A stretch of 64,000 nt of DNA from Antedon mediterranea (lineage: Eukaryota; Echinodermata; Crinoidea; Comatulida; Antedonidae). Made by a program: the position numbers and the translations under genes. Shown here piece after piece: positions 8,780 through 64,000 of this stretch (positions within the stretch are counted from its first letter, which is position 1; each line of letters starts with the position of its first letter). The notes beneath the pieces were generated by a model. That model saw only the letters and a program-made list of their open reading frames with translations. It was not told where the DNA came from and did no database searches. The DNA is taken from the NCBI RefSeq assembly GCF_964355755.1, contig NC_092672.1, positions 28,950,501-29,014,500 on the forward strand. The letters are read 5' to 3'.

Positions 8780-9091
8780 CGTGTTTTTATCTTAACATAT
8801 TCATTTCACATTCATATCTATATTGAGGTTATATGCCAACACAATTCCTTGATTGTAAATAATCTTTTACACCAGATTACAATCATACTCAAAATAGGAT
8901 CCAGCTGAGTATAGTACCATATGTCACAACTACTATTATTAAAGTTACTAGGTAATATCTCCTTAATTAGAACATTCTAAGCTCGATAATTTATTACAGC
9001 ACCTGCTAGATTACCAGCATACTCAATAGTCGAGTTAAGCACCATCAATGTCACTACCACTGATAAAACTATCTAATTAAGTTAACTTAAA

Positions 9092-10308
9092 TTGATTTAT
9101 AACGCAAGCATAATTAACGTACCCTTACATATAATTCCACTTGTTGAAAAAATACTTTATAATTTTCTGTGGAATGGTCGACGTGAAAAAATTAAAAGAC
9201 TTGTTCTTATTAAAAAAGTATGTGAAGGTGGCTTGAATATGATAAATTTCAACTCCGTAATAGATTCATTAAAACTAGCATGGATAAAAAGATTACTCAG
9301 TCCCGATCCAGGAAAATGGAAAAATATTCCAAAATACTTTATGTATCCAATAGAATACACTATAGGTGCAGCTACTCAGCTTAACTTTGAAGATCATATT
9401 GACTTGAATAGAATGCCTGATTTTTATGTATCAATGTTAAAATCAGCGGTTAAGTTGAATAATATTGTTAGTGTACAAAATATAGAAGACATTTTAAAAC
9501 AACCACTTTGGGAAAATAAATATATAATTTCCGCAAGTGGAAAATCTCTTTATTTTAAAATATGGGTACATTCCAAATACAAATCGGTATGTGACATTAT
9601 CGATTTCTAACTTCAGATGAAGTGATACCTACTTTAAGCAATAAACGAAAAGGACTTATCAAATATTTTGCGCTCTTGTATTCAATTCCATGTTTGTGGA
9701 AAGAAATCATCTTTAATTCAATAAAAAACAATCAAATTAACCTGCAAGTCAAAGAAACTGTATTTCATAAAAAATACAAGGCATCTTTTCATTATACCCT
9801 TTTTGTTAGCAATGTTGCTAAAATCCCCAATATACAAGCAAAGTGGGAAGTTGAGTTAGGTAACAATGAAATAGACTGGGACAATACATGGTACTGTAAA
9901 GTTCACAATATGAAACATTTACCACAAGTCGCCCAATTTAATTTTAAATTATTACATCGTATCTTAGCTTGTAGAAAAATCTTAAAGAAGTGGAATCTTA
10001 ATAAAAGTGATTGTTGCGAAAAGTGTTGTATAGAAAGTGAAAAACATATGTTGTACACCTGTAATAGCATTCAATCAGATTTGAGGAAGTTCCGTAAACT
10101 GATCGTTAAATGTATTCCGACTAATGAAACATTACGGCCAGGTTTCCCCGAATGGTCAGACATAATTATAGGAACTCAGAACACGCTTGTTAATGAACTC
10201 ATCTCTTTATTTACATTTAGTATTTACAAATCTTGCATTATTTATAAAACAAGCAAACGGATTATCACTTGGAATTTATTTAAGATAGAAATACAAATGG
10301 AATATTGA
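9092..10308 (+). pseudogene. LINE-type retrotransposon ORF2, C-terminal remnant, frameshifted
   Basis: Two consecutive frames (9092-9610 and 9622-10308) encode the region after the catalytic palm of a non-LTR retrotransposon reverse transcriptase. The first has the typical FLWNGRREKIKR block followed by GGLNMINF and W..RLL. The second has HNMKHLPQVAQFNFKLLHRI and a Cys-rich tail, C-C-E-K-C-C...H-x3-C, which is the reverse-transcriptase-associated zinc-binding region. A one-base indel near 9608 breaks the frame: the downstream frame continues the same protein block without its own start. The polymerase and endonuclease parts are absent, so this is a 5'-truncated dead copy. It lies just before the NLR exon array. 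Confidence 0.85.
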
Positions 10309-10625: not shown

Positions 10626-10756
10626 AAAACAGCAAGAATGAAGATAGTGGACAGTCAGGTGCTAAAGTCGGTCAGATAATAAACGGCAGAAAATAAAAAG
10701 AGGAGCCGATCTAAAAGAGAAAACATTTCCTTCTCAAAATCTACCTCAAGGTACAG
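10626..10756 (+). pseudogene. NLR tandem exon copy A (frameshifted)
   Basis: First copy of a five-copy tandem exon upstream of the NACHT exon. The acceptor is TTTTTCCCTAG and the donor is GTAAATAAC, as in the other copies. In phase 1 it starts NSKNEDSGQSGAK. It then lacks one base relative to the other copies (GCTAAAGTCG against TCTAAAAGTCG) and runs into a stop. With the base compensated, the remainder aligns as RSDNKRQK...LKEKTFPSQNLPQ. The length of 131 nt is not a multiple of three. Confidence 0.55.
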
Positions 10757-10837
10757 GTAAATAACAGCCGTCTTTAGTTGCTTGAAGTACAGTAAATGAA
10801 TCATCCAACTATAAACACTGATATTTGTTTTCTGTAG

Positions 10838-10954
10838 ACAACAGCGATATTGAAGATAGTGGAGCATCAGGTTCTAAAAGTCGATCACATAATAAACGGT
10901 GGAGAAAAAAAGTAATGAAAAAGAAAACGTCTCTCCCTCTAAATCTGCCTAGAG
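10838..10954 (+). CDS. NLR tandem exon copy B (intact)
   Basis: 117-nt phase-1 symmetric exon between acceptor TTTTCTGTAG and donor GTAAATAAC. Spliced in phase 1 it encodes about 39 residues: an acidic/serine half (NSDIEDSGASGSKSR) and a strongly basic half (NKRWRKK, then KKKTSLPLNLPR). The basic cluster resembles a nuclear-localisation or nucleic-acid-binding peptide, but no known domain is recognised. Because exon length and phase are symmetric, it can be skipped or repeated without changing the downstream frame. Expression is not shown. Confidence 0.55.
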
Positions 10955-11112
10955 GTAAATAACAAACGTCTTTAGTTAATTGCGTGAAATACAGTAAATG
11001 AATCATTAACCTCTATCCAACCTATGCCTCCCATCTAATCTGTTATAGAAATATATTGTAAGTTATACTCAAGATGAGAAAATAAAGAAACACTGATTTT
11101 TGTTTTCTGTAG

Positions 11113-11241
11113 ACAACAGCGAGAAAGAAGATAGTGAAGCATCAGCTTGTAAAAGTCGACCAGATAATAAGCGGTGGAGGAAGAAAGTGAAAGCCAAACA
11201 AAGAGAGAAAACATCTACTTCTCTAAATTTGCCTCCTCATG
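11113..11241 (+). CDS. NLR tandem exon copy C (intact)
   Basis: 129-nt phase-1 symmetric exon with acceptor TTTTCTGTAG and donor GTAAATAAC. The peptide runs NSEKEDSEASACKSRPDNK, then RWRKKVKAKQREKTST and SLNLPPH. It is colinear with copy B but four residues longer in the basic half. The preceding intron is also related to the other inter-copy introns: each contains TTAGTTx..ACAGTAAATGAATCAT. The duplication unit is therefore exon plus intron, about 210-275 bp. Confidence 0.55.
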
Positions 11242-11385
11242 GTAAATAACAAGTTAGTTAGTTTCGGGAATTACATTTAAATTATTAATTTACTTCTCAC
11301 TTTTAATGTCCTCTTATATACCTCCTTAAGCTGATATATAATTGTATCGTAACTTATACGTACTTAAATTTATTGGGTTTCATAG

Positions 11386-11515
11386 ACAACTGCAATAATG
11401 GAGATGATGGAGCATCTGGTTCTAAAAGTCTTCAAGCAAGCGCGCCGGATCCAGAATGTTACGAAATCGGAAAGTGGGAACAAATCTTCCCCTCTACATC
11501 TTCCTCAATGTAAAG
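11386..11515 (+). pseudogene. NLR tandem exon copy D (frameshifted)
   Basis: Acceptor GGGTTTCATAG, donor GTAAATAAC. The start (NCNNGDDGASGSKS) is in frame with copies B and C. The 3' half (SSPLHLPQCK) is in a different frame, so an indel lies in the diverged middle. The length of 130 nt is not a multiple of three, so inclusion would shift the frame of downstream exons. Confidence 0.5.
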
Positions 11516-12087
11516 GTAAATAACAAAAGAAAGATGAATTAAAAGAAGTGAATTTCAGCAACTTTTACAATATGTTCCGTGACACAGCGTCATACACGTC
11601 ATATGACATATCTCTACTCTAAATTTAACTTCAACCTACCTTTTACATGAGTATATGCCTATGTAACTGGACATATGAAGGCAATCAGAACACTGAGCTC
11701 GCCTGACCAAGATAGGAACTCGTAACAGTCCTTTGATCTTATTAGTCTAGTAGGAAGGAGGGGTTACCGTGCAACCCCATGATGTATTTTTTTAACGTAT
11801 GTTTTTGTAATCCTGAATATGTAATTAACATTTTTTTATGTTCCCTAGCACAAAATATTGTCACATAGGGTCTTTTGGAGGCCTCTTTGGTGGCCATCTT
11901 GGATTTACCAAAATACTAAATATGTATGGTACTTGACGAGTGATCATAGAGGTCTGATTTGATCTTAAATTGTTCAGAATATGTACATTTATATGTAGGC
12001 CTACTATAATAAAAGTTTTCGTTCAAAATGACCGGAAATACCACTTTTGACCTTTGACTAAGGTGAGAACAAAATAACTTTCTCTAG

Positions 12088-12415
12088 ACTACAGTGATAA
12101 TGAAAAGATGGTGCAGGGGAAAATTTCATTTTAAAATTTTGTTTAGCAATATTGCTAATCAAACTGATTTTTGAGTCGAGAAACATAGTTTTGTTTTGTA
12201 TTTTTTGCTACACAATTTTAAAAATGTGTAGCAAAAAGGTTGTTTTGTATAGCTTTTTGCTATGCTACACTGGCGAAATTATTCCCTGTGGTGGTGCATC
12301 AAGTTCTAAAAGTCGACCACCAGATAATAAACGGCGAAGTATCCAGGATGTTAACGTAGAAGCTAAACGAAGGAGGAAAACATCTACTCCTCTAAATCTG
12401 ACTGTATGCAAAGGT
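12088..12415 (+). pseudogene. NLR tandem exon copy E, split by an insert
   Basis: The module's 5' end (ACTACAGTGATAATGAAAAGATGG, after TTTCTCTAG) and its 3' part (GGTGCATCAAGTTCTAAAAG to donor GTAAATAAC) are separated by about 170 bp of foreign AT-rich sequence. The 3' part is open and encodes GGASSSKSRPPDNKRRS, then AKRRRKTSTPLNL. It could still be used if a new acceptor lies in the insert. The insert contains a strong hairpin, TTTTTGCTACACA / TGTGTAGCAAAAA, near 12207-12242. Confidence 0.5.
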
Positions 12416-13288
12416 AAATAACAGAAGAAGGATGAATACAATTATTTAAATGAGGATTTTACATTCAAATACAGTAACGTATAGAATGTGTTCACATACA
12501 TCACATGCACTATCCCTACTAACCTTTACACATGTTAGGCTGTATCACAGAATATGCCTATAGTACAGGACAAAAGATTATATTATGCAAACGTACTAGA
12601 ATCAACGTTATTCAATCATATCCAAGAACACATGTGAAGGTTCAAAATTTCAACTGTAACATTATGTTAAAATCATATTTTTGTACACTTAAAAAAACAA
12701 GTAATACAGTATTTTTCAAACACTTCCTTTACTATAACTTGATGTTATTTATTCTACAGATATGCCAGATAAATCAGCAACGACATTTCTTGATGAAAAA
12801 GATAGTATCTATACTGTTTATGGCTTCTGTTTTTAACTTTTTCCCTATGACCAGGGCCACTTAATCTCTAGCTCGCTCTCTCAAATGACAGAAAGTTGTT
12901 CTAAAGTAGCCTAAAAAGCAATGTAGATATGAGTTACATTGTGATCAACAGTTTAGTATTAGTAAAAAAAATCCGATTCAATGTAAACTAAGCTCGTCAA
13001 GACAATTTAAAAATGTTTCATTCGTTCTCATGTCAATTTCTGGCCAACTCATAGTTGACAGTTTACCAAATGTTCTTGCCTCAGCCCCAACTTTTATTCC
13101 AGGAGCTGAGCTGAAAATCCTCTGACTGACCATCCCTACCACTTAATCTCGCATCGACTTCAAAATGCAACTAATTTCCGGCCAACTAAAGGTTCACATT
13201 TTCAAAAAATTCTTACATTGAAAAAGTAAGGTATTGGTGGTGCATCATCTCACTTACCACCCCTACAACAAACCCCGTGTATGCCATT

Positions 13289-14129: not shown

Positions 14130-14477
14130 CCTCAGTGTATATTTTAGATTCAATTTCTTTTTAATGTTTCATACAATTGATTCCAAGTTGGAAATTTGAC
14201 GATTTTTATGATTTTCAGCCAACTATAGTACCATTTAAAATATCTTATCTGAGGAGGACAGTAGGTAGAGACTCAGTCTCAGTAGTCACCTCTTCTTTAG
14301 ATTAATCTTTTGATGTACACTTAATCATAGTTGGTCCATCAAAGGCTCCATTTTTTCCTCCATGAACTGGGTATGGGCTTGATTTCTTGAAAACAAATAT
14401 TATGTGTAGAAATGTGTTGTTTTTGAATGTTTTGTTCCTTTTTATCTTATAGAAAAGATAGAAGGTTTTCTGCTTGA

Positions 14478-17400
14478 TATACAAGAAACATCGCTGAAAA
14501 TGCAAAAGATTTAGCACCAGCAATACTGAATACAAGATACGGAGTAGACATATCTAAACTCTTTACAGAGTTGAACCTACTCAAACAAAATCTGAGGAGA
14601 AATGGGAGTCAGTCAACGACGTTGAAAGATGTGTTGAATATTATCAAAGACAAACAAGGTTGTAAAGTCCTTATAGATGGTGAAGGTGGTATAGGTAAAA
14701 CGACGCTTTTAAGGTACATAGCATACAATGCAGGTACAGATAAATCATTTGATGTATTTGAAGGTAAAATTGTCTTTCTTTTGAATATAAGGGAGTTGGA
14801 AGAAGGAAAGGGAATCTTAGATCTAATTGTAAAGAATATTGATATGGAAGATTTTGATTTGAAAACAGGGCTTGGAGAAGATGCCAAAGTAATCAAACAA
14901 TTCATTGTAAACCATGATGATAAAATTGTGCTGTTGTTAGACGGACTAGATGAATTCAGATTTAAGAAAGACATTTTTATTAAGCTTTTTAAAAATGAAA
15001 AATTAAAGAATAGTGTAGCAATACTTACATCACGTACAGAAAACATAGATGAATATATAAATGCATGTGATGTACATGCAAGGGTTACAGGGTTTGGGGA
15101 ACACAGCATTGGAAATTACATTTCCAGATATTTTGAACATTTTGGAAAACCAGCCTTAGGAGAATCACTTAAAAAGGAACTCCAAAATGATACATTACAT
15201 TATAAACATCAAGAAATTCATTCAATGAGCAAAAATCAAATGTTACTTCTCACAATTTGTTGTATGTGGGAAGACAAACAAAAGCTCCCTAATAATAAGT
15301 CTGATCTTTTTAAAGAATTGTTTCGAAGTATTTTGAATCAGTTCATTAATAAACAAGAACAACACAATTTTATTTCAAAATTTGATGATGCTCCAGTGGG
15401 GTATGTAAATGCTATGATTTTGTTAGGGAAATGCATGTATCATAGCTTAAAGATAAATCAACTTTCAATAAACAAAGGAAATTTGATAGCTGACAAAAAT
15501 TTGATTTATATGGCCCTGAAAATGGGATTTGTTTATGAAGATGCACGAATTTCAAAATCTAGCCATGAAAAGTTTTACATGCCTCCACACAAGTTGATAG
15601 TGGAGTCATTGGTAGGATTTTATCTATACAAACTATGTGAAAGTGAATGTATGACAAATGAACGCACAGATGATGTAAACCAACTACTTGCGCCATTAGA
15701 TGAAAAAGAATGGAAAGAAATACGAGAAAGTAAACATCTGAAAATGGCAACAGAGTTTGCAATTGGGTTTATTGGAGCTGATGCTGGTGAATTCTTAAAG
15801 CACTGGATTACAAATGATTTGGCAGCATATCGATCTTTGGGTAGATACTTGGGATTTGTTAAACAATCCTATAAGGATACTGTTGAAAAAGTTTTGACTA
15901 ATCACATGTCCAAAACAACTTCAGAAATACAACATTTTTTGGAAGATATTTCAAATTCATTAAAAATGTTTATTAAGCATGCTAAACGAGATGACAAATT
16001 TAATGGAAATTTTTTACAGCTTTTGAGAGAGTTTCATAACATATCTAGTGAACATTTGTCCAGTTTCTATGAAACAATACCTTCTGGTTTTAAAGAAAAG
16101 GTTTTTACACACATTGTATGTATTTCAATTTGGTATGACCCAGTCATGTTAGAACTAAATAACTTAATCATGCATAATTGTAATTTAACAAATGCTGTAA
16201 TGAATGCTATGATCAGAGGAAGTAAGTTGAGAATACATAAAATCAATATCAGTGGTAATAATCTTAGTGACATTGATGGTACATCACTGTCTTATCTATT
16301 GAGTGCATTGACTGTGGTGGGTACACTTGACATGCATGATTGTAATCTATCAGGTGCTGTAATGAATGCTATGTGTAGAGAGTGTTATGATAATAACGTT
16401 ATGGTTAAAGTGTATCACTTAAATATCAGTGGTAATAATCTTAGTGACATTCATTGCACATCACTGTTTTTTCTATTGTGTATGATGACTTATCATAGTA
16501 CACTTGACATGCATGATTGTAATCTGTCAGGTGCTGCAATGAATACTATGAGTAGAGAGTGTTATGATAAAGGATTTGAGTTGAGTTTATATCATTTAAA
16601 TATCAGTGGTAATACTCTTAGTGACATTGATGGTACATCACTGTGTTCTCTATTTAGTATGATTACTAGCCTGCATACACTTGACATGCATGATTGTAAT
16701 CTATCAGGTGCTGTAATGAATGCTATGAGTAGAGAGTGTTCTAATAAAGGAGTTAAGTTGAGATTAACTCACTTCAATATCAGTGGTAATAATCTTAGTG
16801 ACATTGATAGTACATCATTGTGTTATCTATTGAGTATGATGATTAGGCTGCATAGACATGATTGTAATCTATCAGGTGCTGTAATGAATGATATGGGTAG
16901 AGAGTGTTCTAATAAAGACGTTAAGTTGGATTTAAATCACTTCAATAACAGTGGTAATAATCTTGGTAAGCTTGATGATGCAACAATATATTCTATATGG
17001 AGTAGAGTGGTGCTGCGTACACTTGACATGCATGATTGTAATCTGTCAGGTGCTGTAATGAATGCTGTGAGTAGAGAGTGTTCTAATAAAGGAGTTAAGT
17101 TGGATTTAGATCACTTTAATATCAGTCGTAATAATCTTAGTGACATTGATAGTACATCACTGTGTTCTCTATTGAGTATGATGCCTTGGCGTAGTACACT
17201 TGACATGCATGATTGTAATCTATCAGGTGCTGTAATGAATGCTATGAATAGAGATTGTTCTAATAAAGGAGTTAAGTTGGATTTAGATCACTTCAATATC
17301 AGTGGTAATAATCTTAGTGACATTGATGGTACATCACTGTGTTATCTATTGAGTATGATGCCTTTGCTGCGTACACTTGACATGCATGATTGTAATCTAT

Positions 17401-17510
17401 CAGGTGCTGTAATGAATGCTATTAGTATTGAGTGTTCTAATAAAGGAGTTAAGTTGGATTTAGATCACTTCAATATCAGTGGTGGTAGTAGTAATAGTGA
17501 CATTACTTAA
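14478..17510 (+). CDS. NACHT-LRR receptor (NLR), large 3' exon, 5'-partial
   Basis: NOD-like receptor, a cytosolic STAND NTPase family that senses microbial or danger signals and oligomerises on activation. The frame opens after TGA at 14475-14477. Walker A, GEGGIGKTT, is at 14679-14705 and Walker B, KIVLLLDGLDEF, at about 14922-14957. The NACHT signature GFGEHSIGNYISRYF follows. After a helical linker, ribonuclease-inhibitor-type LRRs run from about 16160 to the end as units of 59 codons (LDMHDCNLSGAVMNAM...NISGNNLSDIDGTSL). The first in-frame ATG (14844) lies 3' of Walker A, so the protein must start in upstream exons. The best acceptor (14451-14452) gives a different frame, which stops at 14512-14514. 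The gene is therefore either frameshifted or uses an unseen acceptor. No effector domain (death, CARD, TIR) is in this exon. Polyadenylation signals follow at 17771 and 17780. Confidence 0.85.
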   Translation, partial: YTRNIAENAKDLAPAILNTRYGVDISKLFTELNLLKQNLRRNGSQSTTLKDVLNIIKDKQGCKVLIDGEGGIGKTTLLRYIAYNAGTDKSFDVFEGKIVFLLNIRELEEGKGILDLIVKNIDMEDFDLKTGLGEDAKVIKQFIVNHDDKIVLLLDGLDEFRFKKDIFIKLFKNEKLKNSVAILTSRTENIDEYINACDVHARVTGFGEHSIGNYISRYFEHFGKPALGESLKKELQNDTLHYKHQEIHSMSKNQMLLLTICCMWEDKQKLPNNKSDLFKELFRSILNQFINKQEQHNFISKFDDAPVGYVNAMILLGKCMYHSLKINQLSINKGNLIADKNLIYMALKMGFVYEDARISKSSHEKFYMPPHKLIVESLVGFYLYKLCESECMTNERTDDVNQLLAPLDEKEWKEIRESKHLKMATEFAIGFIGADAGEFLKHWITNDLAAYRSLGRYLGFVKQSYKDTVEKVLTNHMSKTTSEIQHFLEDISNSLKMFIKHAKRDDKFNGNFLQLLREFHNISSEHLSSFYETIPSGFKEKVFTHIVCISIWYDPVMLELNNLIMHNCNLTNAVMNAMIRGSKLRIHKINISGNNLSDIDGTSLSYLLSALTVVGTLDMHDCNLSGAVMNAMCRECYDNNVMVKVYHLNISGNNLSDIHCTSLFFLLCMMTYHSTLDMHDCNLSGAAMNTMSRECYDKGFELSLYHLNISGNTLSDIDGTSLCSLFSMITSLHTLDMHDCNLSGAVMNAMSRECSNKGVKLRLTHFNISGNNLSDIDSTSLCYLLSMMIRLHRHDCNLSGAVMNDMGRECSNKDVKLDLNHFNNSGNNLGKLDDATIYSIWSRVVLRTLDMHDCNLSGAVMNAVSRECSNKGVKLDLDHFNISRNNLSDIDSTSLCSLLSMMPWRSTLDMHDCNLSGAVMNAMNRDCSNKGVKLDLDHFNISGNNLSDIDGTSLCYLLSMMPLLRTLDMHDCNLSGAVMNAISIECSNKGVKLDLDHFNISGGSSNSDIT
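16161..17510 (+). repeat. LRR-coding tandem repeat, 177-bp unit
   Basis: The block ACACTTGACATGCATGATTG starts at 16323, 16500, 16677, 17019, 17196 and 17373. The 16677-17019 interval holds one further unit that lacks the ACACTTGAC start. Spacings are 177, 177, 168, 174, 177 and 177 nt, all multiples of three. A more diverged first unit begins near 16161. Near identity at the DNA level points to recent duplication or gene conversion. Confidence 0.9.
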
Positions 17511-31900: not shown

Positions 31901-34900
31901 ACCAATCAGCAAAGAAACACGATCAAGAAAAAGTTAAAAGCTCGGAAACTGAATCGGACGGTCAGCCGAAGCTTAAAAGGACACAGGGTCATCGGAAAAT
32001 GCCAACATTCAGCGCCATAGGAAGCAGTATATTTGTAGTGAGTAAAATAATTAGGAAGGCCAGCTGCATAAATATGACCAACCCATGTGCGACTAATAAA
32101 TTAAATAATCATTTTATTGTAAGTGTAGTTTAATAACCCATAGATATATGAGAATATCAATATAAAAAAAGAGAAAAATTGGCAACAGGTAATTACAGGT
32201 CCTCAAACTGATTGTTTAAAACAGTAACTCTGTGTACTCCTAGTACCACAGTTTTAAAGTTGCCGATCCAGTTATAAAGTTTATAAGTACAGTAAACTTT
32301 AAATCTATTTATTGTTTGTATCCACTTACAGAATTATATTTTTATTTATAGCCTTCAAGTACATCATTTGAATTCACAGCGAAAGACTTGGCTGAGACGA
32401 GATACCAAGCGGAACAACGTGTGAAACTCCTTAGGCAAGAACTTAAAGAACAGGATGAACTTGGTGAGTTAAGTCAACCCTAAACTCTTAATCATAAACA
32501 TTACAAAAACTGTCTAAATTGATTAAAGTGTCTGAAACCAAAACTTGTTTGAAGCAATTAAAACTAAAGCTCTGTCTACACTATTAAACTAGTTTGTGCC
32601 AAAACATGATAGTGATATGCCCAAATAAAAAGAAAAATATCACATTCTGTCCATATGGGCATATCACATTTTTTTGTCGCATAAAGTTTTATAGTGTAGA
32701 AAGAACTCAATATTCTCCCAGTCCTGGACTTTTTACCGTTTTAAAACGATTTAATTATCTGTGTGTTTTTTTTATAGAGCAAACTAAATTAAAAATAAAG
32801 ACTAAAGTAGAAGGATCTGGTTATGTTTTGGGAACCCAGACAAATACCCCGTCACTTAATATTGAGACGCCAACGACTGGAAAAGGACTACCACAGCTAA
32901 CATCGTTAATCAAACAGCCTAGTATACAAGAACCTGTGAAGACTTCAGAATTGTTAACCCAGCAAACTGGTGCCAGTTCAGCTATGCCTACTTTCTTGCA
33001 AGGTCTTGGAAAGTCATCTGCTTCTACCATTCCTCCTTCAAATCTCTTAACATCCACTACTGCCAAGACTGGTTCTCTCACAACTGTAACTCTTGGGCAG
33101 AAATTATCAACAGGTGGACTTGGAATGTCTTCTCTGACACCAGTCTCATCAACGCAAGGTACTACTACGCCAGTAATCAACTTCGGTACCAGTTCGAAGG
33201 TCACACCAGCGGCTACCAAAACCAATACCTCTTTGAATCCAGATCTATCAATTAAGAATGCTTCAAATACTCCTTCAGGATTTCAGTTTGGAACCAGTGA
33301 ACCTAAACCTTTCTCTCAAACTGGTTCTACATCATTATCTAGTGCTGGACAAGGATTCAAGTTTGGTGGAACTGGTGACAGTGCTGCTAGCGCTAAATTT
33401 CCAGTTGGAGGAACTGTTCTTGGAAGCAGTCCATCCCTTAACCAACCTACCAGCGTGCCATCGACTTCAACTGGTAGCTTCACATTTGGTGGATCAATGA
33501 CCACCAATAGTAACAATCAAACTAGTAAAGAACAGAATAAGTCAATGAATTTACCAAGTTTCTCAACATCCAGTGGTTCTATAACTGGTAACACAGGTTC
33601 ATTTGGTGGTGCAACAGTGAGCTCAAATATTTTTGGTGCCACTACGACTGGTGCAAGCGCCCCATCCACTCCAGCTCAACAAGCATCCTCATCCTCCTTC
33701 CAGTTTAAAGCCTCTGGCAGCTCCGGTAATTTGTCTGGTCTTTCATCCGGATTGTTTCCGTCAGGGATTACTAATAGTGTTTCTTCACAATCGCAAAAGA
33801 GTACGTTTAAACCGATATTTGGTGATACCCTTCAATCCATGTCAACAGCGATGACGCCACCTAAACAAACATTTAACCCGATCTTTGGTGCACCCAACAA
33901 AAGCAAGCCACCTCAAGGTGGATTTAACTTCCAACCAGGTGTAACGTCCGTATCAACAGGTGGTCAAACTTCAACACCTGCATTTGCCTTTGGTGCTAAG
34001 AGTTCCTCTACTTCTGGTGTTTCCTCTGGTATTACATCTGGTATGCCATCTGGTATTGCTTCAGGCATTGCTTCAGGTACAACTGGCAACAATAGTGGTT
34101 TTAATTTTGGATCAAGCACCACTAAAAACACCTCAAATACAATGACAGCAGGAGCCAGAACCGGTTTAAATTTTGGTAAGTAAATAATGAAGTCACAATG
34201 CCTTCAAATTTGAACTTTACCCAAAGTATAATAATAAACACAAAATAATGATTATTACAGCTTGTCCCAAGATATTTAGAAACTTTATTTGGTCAAATTT
34301 ACCATAAGTTACATAACATTGGCTCTGTGTTTCGTGTAAACTTCCTCTTTTATGACCTCTCTGTGTGACCTTTCTGTTTTGAAATTATGTACTACTGTAC
34401 CACCTGCTGTATAAAATCAAACAAGATAAGAATACTTGGCATTTAATAGACATGTGGACTGTTCCATTCTTATGGAATGGTTAGTAGTTCTATAGTATTA
34501 ATATAACATTCTTGTGTATTTTTACTGTAGGTACTTCGCAAGCACTAAGTAGTGGCTTTCAATTTGGCCAATCAAATCCCACTAATCTTCAAAGCACTCA
34601 ATCTGGTGGGATGTTCAGTCAAGCTCAAGCAACACCAGCGTTTGGCCAGACCACACAGAGTATGACCGGGTTTGGACAGTCCAGTGGCTCCGCATTTGGA
34701 CAAACAAGTAAACCGACCTTTGCCCCGTCTGCAGCAAATAGCTTCGGTCAACCAAATCAAACTAACATGTTTGGACAACCTGCTCAAGCAGTTCCTTCAT
34801 TCGGCCAGAGTTCTTCTCAGCCGGCCTTTGGTCAAGCGTCCAGTCAAGGTGCTAACACAGGCTTTCAGTTTGGTGCTGCTTCTGCTACGCCGCCTTTTGG

Positions 34901-35664
34901 GGGATTTGGTCAAGCTAGCCAAGCAGCAACTCCGGCTGCTTCCCAGCAAATGACTCCATCGTTTGGACAGAGTGATAATGCAAAACAGGGCTTCAACTTT
35001 GGTGGATCAGGTAGGAGACTATTTTTAAAATATCCTAAAATATTGCTATTGGAGTGAAACAACCCAAGTTTCTTATTAGTTCAAAATAATATAGACCAGG
35101 ACAATCGCATTAAAGCTCAGGTACAGGCATACATTTTAAATATAATATCTCGTAGTGTAAATAAAGCAAATGTGTTTAACAGAAATCATGACATAAAAAC
35201 ATGAATTTTCCTTAAAATTGCCAGATACAAAATTTGACAAATTTCTGCTATAAAAGACAGACTTTTTTTAGTAGTTGGGTAGTTTAACCAATGCAATACT
35301 ATATCCGGCAACTCCTTAGAAAGTGAAGACAGAGTTGTAACATTACAATATCAGGAAACAATAAAACATTCATGAGAAAGAGCACCTTTTCTGCACTCTT
35401 AACCGCTCCATTTGCTTGACACAGAGTGATTCTTATTGACCTTTAAGATTGTGTCCGCTGATCAAGACACCTTATTTAATGTAAGATAATGTTATTTAAT
35501 GTATTTGTTTGTTTTCAGGAGTGTCTCCTGCACCAAACTTTGGTTCCGGTGGATTCATGACGCCAGCAGGACAGAATCAAAATTTTTCTGTAGGGGCCGG
35601 TGGAACGATAGCCAGGGACCGAAAGAAATATGCTGCCCGCAGAAAAGTGAATAAAAGGAGGTGA
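28903..35664 (+). CDS. POM121: POM121-like FG nucleoporin, 9 coding exons
   Basis: FG-repeat nucleoporin of the nuclear pore complex; family members help build pores in the nuclear membrane and bind importins. Coding exons: 28903-29063, 29737-29889, 30226-30418, 31068-31171, 31863-32037, 32352-32463, 32778-34175, 34531-35010, 35519-35664. All junctions are GT-AG and keep one frame, giving 973 residues. The exon holding the ATG starts at 28852 and has an in-frame TAG at 28864, which fixes the start. The N-terminal third is basic and Ser-rich (SPRILNLSKRIVSPVKIKI). The two large exons are Ser/Thr/Gly-rich with FQFG, FKFGG, FTFGG, FAFG and many FGQ repeats. The C-terminus, FSVGAGG...RKKYAARRKVNKRR, resembles the vertebrate POM121 tail. 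Unlike vertebrate POM121, no N-terminal membrane helix is seen. NUP153 is a less likely alternative. Confidence 0.85.
31381..31421. repeat. Perfect hairpin in POM121-like intron 4
   Basis: GGGTATTTACAATG, a 13-nt loop, CATTGTAAATACCC, set in a longer imperfect palindrome (GAGGCGCAC.. / ..GAGTGCTCC). Probably the centre of a MITE. Confidence 0.5.
32566..32709. mobile_element. MITE copy in POM121-like intron 6
   Basis: Termini AAAGCTCTGTCTACACTATT and TTTATAGTGTAGAAAGAACT, with the GATATGCCC / GGGCATATCAC core. 'CTGTCTACACTAT' family. Confidence 0.7.
35111..35320. repeat. Interspersed repeat, copy 2
   Basis: TTAAAGCTCAGGTACAGGCAT onward matches 3003-3220. It lies in the last intron of the POM121-like gene. 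Confidence 0.6.

Positions 35665-46394: not shown

Positions 46395-64000
<17,606 letters not shown>

Follow-up and report, generated by a model that had tools for sequence, protein, structure and literature searches.

The window, meaning the whole 64-kb stretch of Antedon mediterranea DNA that was analysed, carries, at 10626-12413, five exon-like units that are arranged head to tail and homologous to one another. They lie upstream of a large exon encoding a NACHT domain and leucine-rich repeats (LRRs). The features of this region are listed below.

9086-10308, + strand: two out-of-frame coding fragments (open at 9086-9610 and 9595-10308) at the place expected for a DED-like first exon
10626-10756, + strand: module copy 1, 131 nt; broken by a frameshift and an in-frame stop; translation NSKNEDSGQSGAKVGQIINGRK, then a stop
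10838-10954, + strand: module copy 2, 117 nt; intact, open, phase 1-1; peptide NSDIEDSGASGSKSRSHNKRWRKKVMKKKTSLPLNLPR
11113-11241, + strand: module copy 3, 129 nt; intact, open, phase 1-1; peptide NSEKEDSEASACKSRPDNKRWRKKVKAKQREKTSTSLNLPPH
11386-11515, + strand: module copy 4, 130 nt; does not keep the frame; terminal stop (SSSM, then a stop)
11733-12058, + strand: interspersed repeat, an insertion into the intron that separates copy 4 from copy 5; multi-copy matches in the genome
12088-12413, + strand: module copy 5, 326 nt; interrupted by a 175-bp insertion; no open phase-1 frame
12760-12804, + strand: 45-nt exon, phase 1-1, between the array and NACHT; peptide DMPDKSATTFLDEKD; donor GTATCT
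14453-17510, + strand: NACHT-LRR exon; ORF 14478-17510; Pfam NACHT (8.7e-17) plus LRRs

The ORF has the NACHT and LRR features of the animal NLR (NACHT-LRR receptor) gene family: it matches Pfam NACHT with 61.9 bits (cut-off, 26.7), contains the Walker A motif GEGGIGKTT, and ends in leucine-rich repeats that score above the Pfam cut-off as LRR_1 and LRR_4. No Pfam match to FISNA or B30.2 was found in the window (E 0.001). Within the LRR part, seven similar 177-bp tandem repeats (83% match) span positions 16243-17483, a pattern that points to recent homogenisation of repeats in the sensor part of the gene.

The five-unit array

The donors and acceptors that delimit the units were located by script. 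The five GGTAAATAAC donors were found at 10756, 10954, 11241, 11515, and 12413, and all five units end at identical GTAAATAAC donors. Pairwise exon identity among the copies was 69-80% (z 8-18 against shuffles), and their likeness is therefore not due to chance; even the damaged units take part in it, with copy 1 being 76% identical to copies 2 and 3 and copy 4 matching the other copies with z 8.7-11.3. The 175-bp insertion in copy 5 (approximately 12114-12288) has 14-bp inverted ends (CAGGGG...CCCTG; TIRs CAGGGGAAAATTTC / GAAATTATTCCCTG) and a 5-bp TSD, TGGTG, thus resembling a short DNA transposon. The interspersed repeat at 11733-12058 matches dozens of sites, with 85-88% identity, across most chromosomes; the rest of the array has no such matches.

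The presence of five head-to-tail copies before the NACHT exon, as described in the initial annotation, was confirmed by these comparisons. Other parts of that description held for some copies only. The introns, reported as duplicated too, are partly so, with the shared sequence adjoining donors and acceptors: I1 and I2 match at 85% over 52 bp and 96% over 25 bp, I2 and I3 at 72% over 61 bp, and I4 and I5 at 92% over 24 bp. An exon length of 117-132 nt fits copies 1-4 but not copy 5 with its TIR insertion, and the acceptor type attributed to all units (TTTTCTGTAG) is present at copies 2 and 3, while the remaining copies have TTCCCTAG, TTTCATAG, and TTCTCTAG. Likewise, the basic cluster NKRWRKK and the conserved LNLP tail, said to occur in each unit, are found exactly in copies 2 and 3 only, as is TTTCTGTAG; elsewhere, the tail reads QNLP, LHLP-like, or LNLT. 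Phase-1 symmetry, by which any number of units could be included, applies to copies 2 and 3, whereas copies 1, 4, and 5 are broken, leaving two usable copies of the five. Neither the 45-nt phase-1 exon at 12760-12804 nor a frameshift early in the NACHT exon, described below, had been included in that annotation.

Linker exons in paralogous receptor genes

DED-like-NACHT-LRR genes form a very large family in this genome (365 first-look candidates). In close paralogues, the NACHT exon is preceded by a 170-aa exon that starts with MAASE and is well conserved. Pfam matches it weakly to DED, with E values reaching 1.2e-6 in relatives but never passing the curated cut-off. In most paralogues examined, the DED-like exon and NACHT are separated by a pair of short phase-1 exons, named a (ERRKDEYDDNKASGSKRRPEG) and b (GNREGDDDKCVASASKRRREG). 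This linker exon is 60 nt long and is normally present as these two related copies, the gene order being DED-like exon, linkers a and b, the 45-nt exon or its counterpart, and the NACHT-LRR exon. The 45-nt exon is kept in the paralogues as DMPYRPATTLHGDKH, DFPVTPQDENH, and variants, with GTATGT as the donor. With such loci as L023/L012, L025/L018, L028/L021, and L029, the window gene shares the NACHT-LRR exon (67-74% amino acid identity), the 45-nt exon, and an equivalently placed, related phase-1 linker exon. Those paralogues begin, however, with a DED-like exon, which the window gene lacks. Their linkers typically number two, are 60 nt long, and do not carry the KRWRKK/LNLP extension (only a linker remnant is left in L023), against five longer units in the window.

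We take the module to be the linker exon of a DED-like-NACHT-LRR gene, probably lengthened on its 3' side and expanded to five units in the window lineage, because several lines of comparison converge. The modules share a DD..ASGSK.RP core with linker exons a and b, and the core DD.KASGSK.RPEG is found at the equivalent position in L024, L025, L028, L029, L030, L046, and L048; a gene on C7 (L052) has NSGDEDDGASGSK at the corresponding place. At the nucleotide level, copies 2 (z 7.0) and 3 (z 6.4) resemble linker a above every shuffle, with weaker similarity to b, and both have the phase 1-1 junctions and the acidic-ASGSK-basic core of a linker exon. The neighbour at C3:28.910 Mb, the nearest relative among the genes compared (lowest dS, 0.36 versus at least 0.49), is L023/L012 (G000:C3:28900000-28913104; 28.91 Mb), which has a DED-like exon, a linker remnant, the 45-nt exon, and NACHT. 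Copy 4 and the intron belonging to it can be aligned with this linker remnant (z 7.1; none of 300 shuffles scored as high). This homology with linkers placed between DED-like and NACHT exons upholds the earlier view that the modules are genuine 1-1 exons of an NLR gene. In the more distant genes L038-L044 and L049-L051, no convincing linker match was obtained, although peptides this short may escape such a comparison. The NACHT-LRR ORF of L023/L012, at 617 aa, is shorter than the others.

Since the junctions in the apparently intact paralogues are uniformly phase 1, duplication or loss of a linker keeps the frame, and linker exons could thus be gained and lost without a frame change. At some loci, linkers a and b are separated by 15 codons duplicated from the DED-like exon; together with the two related linkers, this indicates that tandem duplication acted here earlier. 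As judged from the alignment, the linker exon of the window lineage would have been lengthened at its 3' side, past the GAAG/GTAAA donor of the paralogues, and the exon with its intron would then have been multiplied, probably through unequal crossing-over, until five units were present. Later losses would have removed the DED-like exon, shifted the frame at the NACHT start, and broken three of the five linker copies, and insertions would also have entered one linker copy and one array intron. The linker peptide itself is most likely a flexible, low-complexity charged spacer tethering a death-fold effector to the NACHT core.

On the minus strand at L046/L047 (G000:C1:2295157-2299915), a unit of 1,315 bp that comprises a DED-like exon and linkers a and b is present in four near-identical tandem copies. 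No NACHT exon was found in the next 9 kb, and a 1635-codon ORF lies downstream.

State of the window gene

In seven paralogues, the sequence EKIEVYLL.KQ..F..NAK.FTPA is read from the NACHT acceptor without interruption. Relative to these, the window gene lacks one base in an A run at approximately 14497-14500, just past the acceptor, and because of this deletion, phase-1 entry ends at a TAG (14512-14514). Entry in phase 0 runs into another TAG (14459-14461), and a TGA (14475-14477) closes the frame of the NACHT-LRR ORF on its upstream side. All three frames are closed between 14453 and 14514, with no open frame from the upstream exons into NACHT, and therefore no combination of modules can reach the NACHT ORF by splicing at the conserved acceptor.

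The DED-like exon of the paralogues had no match above chance in the whole 64-kb window at the protein or DNA level; the same search readily found a damaged paralogue. Among the genomic DED-like matches listed, none lies between C3:28.909 Mb and the window NACHT exon, and no N-terminal effector (death-fold) domain was found for the window gene. The fragments at 9086-10308 gave no Pfam match at E 0.001 and, by eye, look like a decayed non-LTR retroelement. The one-base deletion could be an assembly error, but an error in the A run would not bring back the DED-like exon or the broken copies. The window gene would give no protein product.

Nevertheless, the NACHT-LRR ORF runs for 1010 codons without a stop, against approximately 18 stops (minimum, 6) expected in a neutral simulation at 15% change, which implies that the exon was constrained until recently or still is. 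Lineage-specific substitutions were little different between the window gene (31 synonymous, 69 non-synonymous) and its sister (32 and 45). Taken with the unbroken ORF, these counts suggest that inactivation was probably recent or that the NACHT exon gained another N-terminus.

Given the homology, the exon phases, the lesions, and the absence of the DED-like exon observed in the window, we consider it quite probable that the array arose when the linker exon of a receptor gene of the DED-like-NACHT-LRR type was expanded in tandem in this lineage, and that the gene is now most likely a recent pseudogene. A functional NACHT-LRR exon with a new N-terminus, provided by a cryptic in-exon acceptor or another first exon and leaving the array as a decaying, skipped leftover, would agree with the lack of stops and with the AG dinucleotides just downstream of the TGA at 14475. 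We regard this as unlikely, as the conserved acceptor at 14450-14452 opens into closed frames in all three phases, the ORF has no ATG ahead of the Walker A motif, and the DED-like exon is missing. Somewhat less probable still, some haplotypes or sister genes may carry an intact, amplified long linker, with the number of spacers varying among alleles and the window representing one inactivated allele.

The initial annotation had proposed a working receptor whose module number varies by splicing or copy number, perhaps governing nuclear entry. Copies 2 and 3 are indeed open and phase 1-1, as are the linker exons of the relatives, and N-terminal cassettes have been tandemly amplified elsewhere (the four DED-like-plus-linker units at C1:2.295-2.300 Mb). 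Even so, with three of the five copies broken, the NACHT entry frame closed, and the DED-like exon missing, we find an active receptor of this kind very improbable. The proposed nuclear localisation is likewise unsupported because the basic cluster, confined to copies 2 and 3, is not conserved in the paralogue linkers.

That the repeated unit might belong to a known transposon family scattered in the genome was examined by searching the genome with single module and linker peptides. The 39-aa module peptide matched only the array itself in the 354-Mb genome, so the module is not a dispersed element. A transposon or satellite unconnected to the receptor gene is scarcely credible and was rejected: two mobile-element-like insertions do lie within the array, but besides this array-only peptide match, the multi-copy DNA matches are confined to 11733-12058, and homologous exons occupy the equivalent place in paralogous NLR genes.

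Comparison with zebrafish NLR-C genes

The NLR-C genes of zebrafish and other teleosts (FISNA-NACHT, NLR-B30.2) form a very large family with death-fold domains in some groups, and in zebrafish, N-terminal peptide repeats of approximately 30 aa, one per exon and differing in number from gene to gene, precede a large NACHT exon (PMC4852459, PMC11192531). This contradicts in kind the earlier statement that no NLR with such an architecture was known, and the principle of variable-number, one-exon N-terminal repeats before NACHT is therefore already established. Both systems combine a very large NLR family with short repeats upstream of NACHT, each on its own exon; they differ in the peptide, in its position behind a DED-like exon, and in the host family. 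The zebrafish repeats are group-specific and approximately 30 aa long, whereas the Antedon linkers are 20-42 aa. In the Antedon relatives, the linkers sit between the DED-like exon and NACHT, and the five-copy case occurs in a broken gene. Moreover, zebrafish NLR-C proteins have a FISNA extension before NACHT and belong to a family published as fish-specific, in contrast to the window, which lacks a FISNA match at the threshold given above. Within the literature library consulted, no paper on tandem linker exons in invertebrate NLRs was found.

Overall, the observation of the array is true and its explanation mostly ordinary. It documents a large animal NLR family in which a death-domain-to-NACHT linker, carried on phase-1 exons, would have been gained, lost, lengthened, and tandemly copied, much like the N-terminal repeat exons of zebrafish NLR-C genes, and it adds modest evidence on the diversification of NLR N-termini. 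As a functional claim on the window gene, it carries little weight because the gene looks dead.

Two further regions of the window were noted. Exons with PHD fingers and chromo/helicase-like sequence lie downstream on the same strand (54430-62300), consistent with a CHD3/4-type remodeller gene, and FG-repeat-rich, nucleoporin-like exons are present at 32588-35057.
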